64,000 nucleotides of DNA from Flavobacterium plurextorum (GTDB lineage: Bacteria; Bacteroidota; Bacteroidia; Flavobacteriales; Flavobacteriaceae), in the NCBI RefSeq assembly GCF_002217395.1, contig NZ_MUHD01000002.1, positions 56,592-120,591 on the forward strand. Reading direction: 5' to 3'. Position 1 is the first letter of the stretch. Each line of letters starts with the position of its first letter. The position numbers were made by a program, and so were the translations under genes. Below are positions 29,960-32,176 of this stretch, one piece after another. The notes under the pieces are model-generated. The model worked only from the letters and a program-made list of their open reading frames with translations, had not been told where the DNA came from and made no database searches.

Positions 29960-32176
29960 TTATAAAACTAATAGTCCAAACTCGCGTAAAGTGTTTATTG
30001 GTTTTGAATACCAAAACAATTCAAAATCTTCTAAATGAGTTTCAAAGTCATTTTTCACTTCTTGAAAAGTACAACTTTTAGAATTTGAAACTGAAATTTT
30101 AGTTAAAATTTCGATTAACCATTTACCTTCTTCATTACTGGTTTGAATAGTAAAACTTTGTTTTTTGTCATGAAAAGTCAGCGACATCATTTCCCAGCTT
30201 CTGCCTTTTTTAGATTTAGTAAAAATCTCCGTTGAAGGTTTTCCACCAAGCCAAACCACTTTTGCATTTGGCTTCGTACTGAAATCATTTTGCTCTTCAA
30301 GTGCATTAAATATAAAATCGGGATGAATTTTTGTCTTCGGAATTTTGAAATCAAACCAATCTTGAAGCTCATAATCAAAACAAATTCCATGCATGAAATT
30401 AAAAAGTGATTTCTTTAACCCAAAACTAAATTTATCGTGATTGATTCCTGTTGAATCTGTGTATTCAATATCATTATTAGCAAAAGTTCCAATAGCTTCA
30501 GTAGCCTTAGTTACACCAAATTTTTCAGGATATAATCCAACAGGACTATGAGCCGTTAATGCAAACTGATGCCAAAATCCAGATTGCAAAACTCCCGCTT
30601 CAAACAACTGACGAACCATTTCAAGACTATCAACTGTTTCTTGGATCGTTTGTGTTGGATATCCATACATTAAATACGCATGAACCATAACTCCTGCTTC
30701 AGTAAAATTGCGGGTTACTTTTGCAACTTGCTCCACGGTTACACCTTTGTCTATTAATTTCAATAATCGATCTGAAGCAACTTCTAAACCGCCTGAAACG
30801 GCAATACAGCCAGAGGCTTTTAAAAGAAGACAAAGATCTTTAGAAAAACTTTTTTCAAATCTAATATTCGTCCACCATGTAACTGCAAGTTTTCGCTTTA
30901 TTATTTCAAGCGCCAAAGCGCGCATTAAAGCTGGCGGCGCAGCTTCATCGACAAAATGAAAGCCATTTTGACCTGTCTGCAAAATCATTTCTTCCATTCG
31001 ATCACAAAGTAAACTTGCCGCAACTGGTTCGTAAACTTTAATATAGTCTAATGAAATATCGCAAAAAGTACATTTTCCCCAGTAACAGCCGTGTGCCATG
31101 GTAAGTTTATTCCAACGTCCATCGCTCCACATTCTGTGCATTGGATTCACAATTTCAATTACAGAAATGTATTTATCCAAAGGCAGATCTGAGTAATCTG
31201 GAGTTCCTACTTGTGATTGTTTATAATCGTGTTTTAAAGAGTTATTTTTATAAACTACTTCTCCGTTTTCTAGTAAAAATGTTCTTTTATAATGCTTCTC
31301 GTTCCTCGACTCCGCTCGGGATGACATATTTTCAATAAGTTCTTCTATTGGAACTTCACCATCGTCTAAAGTGATGAAATCGAAAAATTCAAAAACACGT
31401 TTATCTGAAAGGGATCGCAGTTCCGTATTTGGGAAACCACCGCCCATTGAAATCTTAATTTCGGGATGATTTTGTTTTACCCATTGAGCACTTCTAAATG
31501 CGCTGTATAAATTTCCTGGAAAAGGAACAGAAATCAAAAAAAATGTAGGCTTTACAGCTTCAATTTTTTCTTTTAGAATAGAAATTAAAACAGAATCAAT
31601 ATAAGTTGGTTCTTGTTGTAAAGCATTGTACAATTCATCAAAAGAATTGGCGCTTCGACCTAAACGTTCTGCATATCGGCTGAAGCCAAAATTTTCGTCA
31701 ACACATTCTACAATAAAATCCGAAATATCTTCAAGATATAAAGTCGCCAAATGTTTGGCTTTATCTTGAGTTCCCATTGTTCCAAAAGCCCAATCTAGTT
31801 CTTCCAACTGTGCAAAACGAGAAGCTTCGGGCAGAAAATCTTCCTGACAAATCTGCAAAGCCAAAGTTGGATTTTTTCCCTGCAAAAACTGAATGACAGC
31901 ATCAATTGTTTTGATGTATTCATCCTGTAAAGCAAAAATACGTTTGGAGTTATCTGAGATTTCAAAACCAGAAGTCTCAAACTTAAAACTTGAAGTTTTA
32001 AACAAATTATTTAATCCTTTCTTCGAAAACAATTCCAAAATCACATCAATACCCAAATCTGCCTGAACCGACTCGATATTTTTGGTATTCAAAAAACCTT
32101 TTATATAAGCCGTTGCCGGATACGGAGTATTCAGTTGTGTAAAAGGCGGCGTAATTACAAAAAGTTTCGTTTTCAA
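29960..32176 (-). CDS. B12-binding-type radical SAM protein, CX4CX2C cluster
   Basis: A 738-residue radical SAM protein. The N-terminal half (about 1-275) looks like a B12-binding Rossmann region (PPFTQLNTPYPATAYIKG near 10-28, SVPFPGNL, SMGGGFPNTE at 243-252, DDGEVPIEEL at 271-280). The radical SAM core follows: GCYWGKCTFCDIS places the cluster cysteines at 364, 369 and 372, a CX4CX2C spacing instead of the canonical CX3CX2C. The VSGGLEVASD motif (about 450) and the helical C-terminal half are in order. Substrate unknown; related enzymes methylate or rearrange unactivated carbons. An in-frame repeat-like insertion adds residues 284-295. The gene abuts the MBL gene convergently. Confidence 0.85.
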   Translation of the reverse strand: MKTKLFVITPPFTQLNTPYPATAYIKGFLNTKNIESVQADLGIDVILELFSKKGLNNLFKTSSFKFETSGFEISDNSKRIFALQDEYIKTIDAVIQFLQGKNPTLALQICQEDFLPEASRFAQLEELDWAFGTMGTQDKAKHLATLYLEDISDFIVECVDENFGFSRYAERLGRSANSFDELYNALQQEPTYIDSVLISILKEKIEAVKPTFFLISVPFPGNLYSAFRSAQWVKQNHPEIKISMGGGFPNTELRSLSDKRVFEFFDFITLDDGEVPIEELIENMSSRAESRNEKHYKRTFLLENGEVVYKNNSLKHDYKQSQVGTPDYSDLPLDKYISVIEIVNPMHRMWSDGRWNKLTMAHGCYWGKCTFCDISLDYIKVYEPVAASLLCDRMEEMILQTGQNGFHFVDEAAPPALMRALALEIIKRKLAVTWWTNIRFEKSFSKDLCLLLKASGCIAVSGGLEVASDRLLKLIDKGVTVEQVAKVTRNFTEAGVMVHAYLMYGYPTQTIQETVDSLEMVRQLFEAGVLQSGFWHQFALTAHSPVGLYPEKFGVTKATEAIGTFANNDIEYTDSTGINHDKFSFGLKKSLFNFMHGICFDYELQDWFDFKIPKTKIHPDFIFNALEEQNDFSTKPNAKVVWLGGKPSTEIFTKSKKGRSWEMMSLTFHDKKQSFTIQTSNEEGKWLIEILTKISVSNSKSCTFQEVKNDFETHLEDFELFWYSKPINTLREFGLLVL
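31294..31327. repeat. In-frame repeat-like insertion in the radical SAM gene
   Basis: A GC-rich block, plus strand TCTCGTTCCTCGACTCCGCT with CGGGATGACAT after it, stands out in an AT-rich gene. Its minus-strand reading codes MSSRAESRNEKH in frame between IEELIEN and YKRTFLLENG. Sequences like GAGCGGAGTCGAGGAACG are recurrent dispersed repeats in Flavobacteria as I recall them. The identity should be checked in the whole genome. Confidence 0.55.

Follow-up and report, generated by a model that had tools for sequence, protein, structure and literature searches.

A dispersed GTCA-tagged palindrome that probably entered a permissive loop of a radical SAM enzyme in Flavobacterium

A dispersed palindrome compared with described repeat systems

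The closest described counterparts of the element considered here are the intragenic GTAG and CGTC repeats, treated in what we take to be the 2013 work of Di Nocera and co-workers (the first source cited below), and the Rickettsia palindromic elements (RPE), which, as in the present case, are palindromic repeats lying in frame in functional proteins. RPE-1 insertions, which Ogata reportedly described in 2000, are said to be longer and additive, whereas the 25-nt elements dealt with here usually replace part of the native loop. G. forsetii, mentioned below, is presumably a relative of the flavobacteria. The GTAG and CGTC repeats are described as short dispersed palindromes with a terminal tetranucleotide, mostly intergenic but in some instances in frame within housekeeping proteins (PMC3733652), and intragenic in-frame REPs and RPEs are already established (PMC3733652, PMC12306157, PMC2759123). 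The portion of the first source on which we draw also reports that recB genes of two Xanthomonas species carry different REPs at about the same site, that the CGTC tag can read TGTC, that CGTC repeats lack an association with transposase genes, that RPE-6 and RPE-4 are equated with the CGTC-1 and CGTC-4 repeats, and that G. forsetii is CGTC-positive (PMC3733652). The string "Flavobacter" is absent from its main text. Among the literature matches listed, which came mostly from main texts outside subscription journals, neither this repeat nor a comparable reuse of one loop is reported for Flavobacterium, and six 14-nt core strings of the repeat occur in none of the texts searched.

The window, i.e. 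the whole stretch of 64,000 nucleotides that was analysed, corresponds to positions 56592-120591 of contig C12 in a genome of 5.06 Mb and 65 contigs. It contains, at 31302-31326 on the minus strand, a copy of the repeat with the organization TGTCA-TCCC-GAGCGGAGTCGA-GGAA (minus-strand sequence TGTCATCCCGAGCGGAGTCGAGGAA), which lies in frame in a radical SAM gene and whose stem has one broken pair (C.A). With up to three mismatches allowed, the window contains a single occurrence of the 18-mer quoted in the original prediction. Searches of the whole assembly with the 13-mer core GAGCGGAGTCGAG revealed 20 matches (three exact, including the one in the window, and 17 with one mismatch) and none for the reversed control, while TGTCANNNNGAGCGNAGTCGA gave 86 matches at up to two mismatches and its reversed control two. 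Thus, the claim that this sequence is a dispersed Flavobacterium repeat is borne out, and the lack of further genomic copies, which had been named as evidence against it, is not observed.

The consensus of 85 distinct copies reads TTGTCA-NNNN-GAGCG(A/G)AGTCGA-NNNN, and the stem pairs 5-24, 6-23, 7-22 and 8-21 covary over these copies with z of about 7-10. Predicted hairpin folding energies are no better than those of shuffled sequences, so the assignment as a palindrome rests on covariation. The copies often occur in inverted pairs (e.g. C13:50928/50980), as is also seen for the REPs and REPINs mobilised by RAYT transposases. The family is a GTCA-tagged dispersed palindrome that is REP-like in the broad sense: its length falls within 20-40 nt, many copies are dispersed in one genome, a self-complementary stem is indicated by the four covarying pairs, though not by folding energy, and the location is mainly extragenic, with six of the 85 own-genome copies internal to identified genes and the rest, a few of them near ORF starts, judged by ORF length only. 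Copies near an ORF start (L138, L172, L174, L189, L200) or in a short ORF (L210) were excluded from the coding count, and one locus (L011), which lacks the TGTCA part and matches the 13-mer apart from one mismatch, was set aside as a probable chance match. We noticed post hoc that, of the own-genome copies, four of the eight with C at stem position 8 are coding and two of the 77 with T (Fisher p 0.0005). In another genome of the genus (L193, G029:C1:254098-255833), copies of the same REP are densely arrayed with alternating orientation. The window's genome also contains 35 matches to a second GTCA-tagged repeat, of the GTCATTTCGACGAAGGAGAAATC type, often as inverted pairs about 75 bp apart.

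Compared with the described systems, the family differs from GTAG REPs of the REP/RAYT type, which carry GTAG at the 5' end of the hairpin, in having the tag TTGTCA. It agrees with the CGTC superfamily, including RPE-4 and RPE-6, in that its consensus contains TGTC, one of the two tag forms given for that superfamily in the portion of PMC3733652 used here, and it shares with the GTAG and CGTC repeats described there the dispersal, the terminal tetranucleotide and the in-frame copies in housekeeping proteins. By contrast, the CGTC REPs of that description have a stem of 8-9 bp, a loop of 4-5 nt and a CCA tail, whereas here four covarying pairs surround a fixed 12-nt core and no CCA tail is found; nor does the portion used here include a single loop taking several palindrome types across a genus. 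As to a mobiliser, the genome has four matches to Y1 transposases, two intact and two incomplete, and both intact genes score above the IS200 cut-off and below that of the REP-transposase family (REP_Tyr). No REP copy was found near the two intact genes in the stretches examined, one of the genes being near a contig end. A Y1/IS200-type transposase gene (L051, 1348-2136) is flanked by copies of another palindrome, of the CTGGACTTCAGTCCAG type. Among these genes no support was found for a RAYT as the mobiliser of the repeat: the intact ones fail the REP-transposase cut-off, and the palindrome flanking one of them is not the one studied here.

The host enzyme and its two variable loops

The gene that hosts the element (29960-32176, minus strand) is an uninterrupted ORF of 738 codons with a TTG start; the block lies in frame in a radical SAM gene, as the original prediction had it. 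Pfam places a Radical_SAM domain at residues 361-520 (E-value 3.4e-10), and the 13 NCBIfam matches, all below cut-off, belong mostly to B12-binding radical SAM families, so that by its sequence the protein is probably a B12-binding enzyme of the B12-type radical SAM class. The putative cluster-binding motif C364-YWGK-C369-TF-C372 (31061-31087, minus strand) is invariant in all 31 aligned sequences, which argues that the gene is functional rather than a pseudogene. The motif has the form CX4CX2C, with four residues between the first two cysteines; the usual form is CX3CX2C. Judged by this gene, Flavobacterium sp. YO12 is the closest relative with a name, its protein being 98% identical. Structure prediction yielded a poor model (mean pLDDT 56), which with low confidence puts loop 2, the site of the element, between a helix predicted for the N-terminal part and the strands predicted ahead of the radical SAM core; a PDB sequence search returned only three weak matches, to ELP3 (E-values 0.044-0.049).

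We fetched 80 named homologous loci and could read the loop in 79 of them, which with the window gives 80 rows; locus L115 is in neither the loop table nor the tree. In an alignment of 80 rows, outside the first eight and the last residues, which the listing of gap regions leaves aside, the length of the protein varies internally at residues 61-71, at residues 285-293 and at four sites with one or two differing rows each, and hence two loops account for nearly all internal length variation of the enzyme. Hypervariable loop 1 (residues 60-71, KTSSFKFETSGF; 31964-31999, minus strand) could be scored in 75 of the 80 rows: 28 have at least two heptamer units of the CAAGTTT/CAGGTTT type and 13, including the window, have one. 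The window's loop 1 might, at a guess from this single recognisable unit, be a worn heptamer array. Besides these units, loop 1 holds the REP in L089 and L101 and palC (see below) in L063, the latter looking like a clean insertion accompanied by a short duplication; six rows have yet another element (CSANSASS or alike). Rows with in-frame heptamer arrays or other elements in loop 1 include L058, L063, L070, L073, L079, L089, L101, L102 and L121, and heptamer arrays are also seen in short-ORF stretches of the window's own genome (L138, L140, L145).

Hypervariable loop 2 comprises about residues 280-296 (31289-31339, minus strand), with gap regions at 285-288 and 291-293, and the block within it encodes MSSRAESRNEKH, residues 284-295. 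Its states were assigned by custom regular expressions. The loop is plain (54 nt) in 39 of the 80 rows, in agreement with the expectation that homologues lacking the insert exist; 16 rows carry the REP in the frame that reads VTSSE, nine, with the window, in the frame that reads SRAES, and two have one REP nested in another, while palC and palD (labels coined here, like palF and palG) are found in two rows each, palF and palG in one each, and eight rows are classed as other. Altogether, 33 of the 80 rows bear some element at this loop, namely the REP, read in either of two frames and nested in two rows, or else palC, palD, palF or palG, and some VTSSE copies are well decayed (e.g. L112, with five core mismatches). 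On a gene tree from which the loop was excluded, the states of 72 rows require a minimum of 28 changes, which become 33 if the eight other rows are counted and 26 if the REP classes are merged; these changes comprise losses and possible exchanges between species as well as entries. Ten of 26 sister pairs differ in loop state, five of the ten with support of at least 95/80.

The other palindromes recur as well. The palC sequence (TCCCGAANNTTCGGGA) is found at 22 places in the genome of L103, 16 in that of L105 (loop copies included) and 67 in that of the window (controls 0, 0 and 1), although it might be a common terminator stem instead of a mobile element. Within their own genomes palF occurs at six places and palG at 32, the loop copy included in both cases (controls 0), and palD at eight places in the genome of L119 and two in that of L121 (control 0); in L121 the case for a recurrent element is weak, as one of the two places is the loop copy. 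Both palF and palG begin with the GTCA tag of the REP, and in palF most of the REP core is present as well; the three may thus form one superfamily, and the five types are not five unrelated families; palC and palD look unrelated to the REP. Judged from these sequences, the loop appears to have been rewritten many times in the genus by the REP and by other palindromes, with nesting among the events. One loop of one enzyme thus takes several palindrome types among 80 rows, and the genus-wide reuse of a single loop looks new, as does the near length-neutral replacement described in the last section. The prediction of a rare case was therefore an understatement, and the original interpretation, in part supported, was too narrow, since the SRAES state is one of many and copies of this repeat are also coding in other genes of the genome.

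Nesting may also explain the limits of the window's block. In L108 and L111 a TCCC-type REP is nested inside a CTTC-type REP, the tail of which is GAGAAGC. The window retains the inner copy together with GAGAAGC (31294-31300, minus strand), a putative tail of an older REP of type ...TCGAGAAGC, and lacks the 5' half of that older REP, which fits an older CTTC-type copy into which a TCCC-type one was inserted, followed by deletion of the older 5' half. Of the extent initially proposed, 31294-31327, only 31302-31326 is the repeat proper. The stem pair that is broken in the window is intact in L056, L057 and L059.

Origin and history of the loop copies

In synonymous divergence the repeat codons are among the lowest of the gene. 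Restricting the count to codons whose residue is shared by both sequences, we obtained codon-difference fractions for the REP window of 0.07, 0.13 and 0.11 in three REP classes versus gene medians of 0.34, 0.35 and 0.43, ranking 6th lowest of 714, 8th of 725 and 3rd of 700, with most of the lower windows listed overlapping the repeat. The comparison used nine SRAES rows, seven of eight long VTSSE rows (without L081) and seven of eight short VTSSE rows (without L112, the most decayed), and leaving out these two divergent rows lowers the values of both VTSSE classes. At 10 codons from the REP the synonymous difference is 0.22-0.37, and at 20 codons it is normal (0.35-0.41). The plain loop is itself low (0.23 vs 0.34, in 20 of the 39 plain rows), and the site itself may therefore account for some of the effect. 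Low divergence of the repeat could result from recent or repeated entry, from conversion by other copies, or from a constraint on DNA or RNA.

We consider it very probable that a GTCA-tagged REP-like palindrome entered a permissive loop of this probably B12-type radical SAM enzyme and is translated, and that the same loop was re-entered repeatedly in the genus. Loop 2 would make few demands on sequence, and copies that kept the frame would have survived; the other 79 of the 85 own-genome copies were not found inside an identified gene. Over the history of the genus, the REP family would have entered the loop repeatedly, in two frames, as would other kinds of palindrome; some entries would have been nested, some copies would have been partly deleted, and a plain loop may at times have been restored. 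Entry may have occurred by single-strand transposition or by template switching, and the element would be neutral for the enzyme. The likeness to RPEs holds in that the copy is in frame, repeat-free relatives exist and the host gene is open, translation being deduced from the open frame; both this likeness and the tolerance of the loop had been correctly anticipated.

It is possible, if somewhat unlikely, that loop alleles, repeat included, spread between species by homologous recombination and that true entries were few. The SRAES-type DNA is nearly identical in nine rows scattered over the tree, and this class has a slightly reduced synonymous difference at a distance of 10 codons (0.24 and 0.26; median 0.34); at 20 codons, however, it is normal (0.36 and 0.40), so such tracts would be of the order of 100 bp, and the several distinct palindrome types would require several entries anyway. 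For the same reason of normal divergence at 20 codons, spread of long gene segments between species is unsupported.

Selection on the encoded peptide or on a DNA or RNA hairpin, e.g. for mRNA control or protein contact, appears improbable to us. It would account for the low rank of the REP codons in three classes, for the retention of stem pairs in coding copies and for one synonymous double change that keeps a pair (L093), but 39 of the 80 rows do without the repeat, which elsewhere is read in two frames or replaced by other palindromes, and the copy in the window has a broken pair. Moreover, recent entry yields the same low divergence, the plain loop is also fairly conserved, and two of the three classes owe part of their low values to the omission of L081 and L112. 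That ordinary family residues merely resemble the repeat by chance is hardly credible. The same residues do occur in other species, in nine of the 80 rows including the window, an outcome that the original prediction had regarded as fatal; since every one of these species owes the residues to the repeat, they do not speak against a repeat origin. The genome counts against reversed controls (20 vs 0; 86 vs 2), the exact 13-mer core at three places and the 39 plain loops lead us to reject chance similarity.

Replacement versus addition in this and other genes

Measured against the plain 54-nt loop, which serves as a yardstick rather than as a proven ancestor, SRAES rows gain 12 nt for an element of 25 nt. 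Of the VTSSE rows, eight gain 3 nt and eight gain 18-21 of 25 nt, the latter being nearly additive; palC adds 12 of its 16 nt, palF 6 nt, and palG, the exception, 39 nt. In 32 of the 33 element rows, loop 2 exceeds the plain loop by less than the length of the element, which implies that native loop sequence was lost, and pure addition as a general rule is rejected on this count. The element in the window, with a net gain of 12 nt for 25 nt, is no simple addition between family residues, and since native loop sequence is usually lost, the predicted insertion is only half correct.

Six own-genome copies lie inside genes, namely those for the radical SAM enzyme, PurK, HemW, GltX, a methylmalonyl-CoA mutase-type protein and a cyclase-family protein, the first four of which were compared with repeat-free homologues. 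In a scan of 61 genomes of the genus, at least 29 have a strict match of the C type; 30 of the listed loci were inspected, and six contain internal coding copies: GltX, PurK, the own-genome HemW and, in L188, L206 and L212, HisA, an epimerase-like protein and HsdM. The first-pass coding set comprised 52 rows, some of other palindrome types. In the 40 coding copies with up to two core mismatches, many of which are orthologous and hence not independent, 149 of 160 stem cells are paired (shuffled mean 114.8, maximum 124). These copies span 21 stem versions, which together with the retained pairing suggests that different REP subtypes entered different genes.

For HemW, PurK and GltX we analysed the best 30 loci each among the 61 genomes searched. 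The HemW loop behaves like that of the radical SAM enzyme: it is plain in 18 of its 30 loci, has a clear REP in seven (that of L244 being split by a second palindrome), is palC-like in three and has a decayed REP in two; the stretch measures 42-43 residues when plain, 46-50 with REP, 47 when palC-like and 53-54 with two elements. In GltX, all 20 of the 30 loops that are readable have 43 residues with or without the repeat, which is clear in four, and L275 and L280 are nearly identical on both sides of a stretch of 30 nt, which derives from the REP in only one of them. In GltX loci L273-L282 the repeat occupies the place of 10 loop codons with the length unchanged.

As a quite tentative and on balance doubtful proposal, palindromes may overwrite loops rather than insert into them, in that a length-biased exchange (template switching, or conversion from other copies) would swap native codons for those of the repeat and keep refreshing copies already in genes. 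Overwriting would explain the correspondence of 30 nt to 30 nt in GltX, the gains below element length in 32 of 33 rows of the radical SAM loop and the lowest synonymous divergence in and around the repeat; if true, the repeats would constantly supply housekeeping enzymes with loop peptides. Our survey documents coding palindromes in Flavobacterium together with orthologues that have and lack them, and such natural replicates (the same site, a different element, a close repeat-free sister) can be used to test how mobile repeats rewrite proteins, as they bear on insertion versus overwriting and on homogenisation of in-gene copies.

In PurK, where nine of the 30 loci are readable, the stretch has 38 residues in the two with REP and, without it, 36 in five relatives and 38 in two. 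In the cyclase-family gene (L180, 1122-1919) the REP is seemingly adjoined by a second palindrome-like stretch (STSLNVTLSGSASPEASGP).
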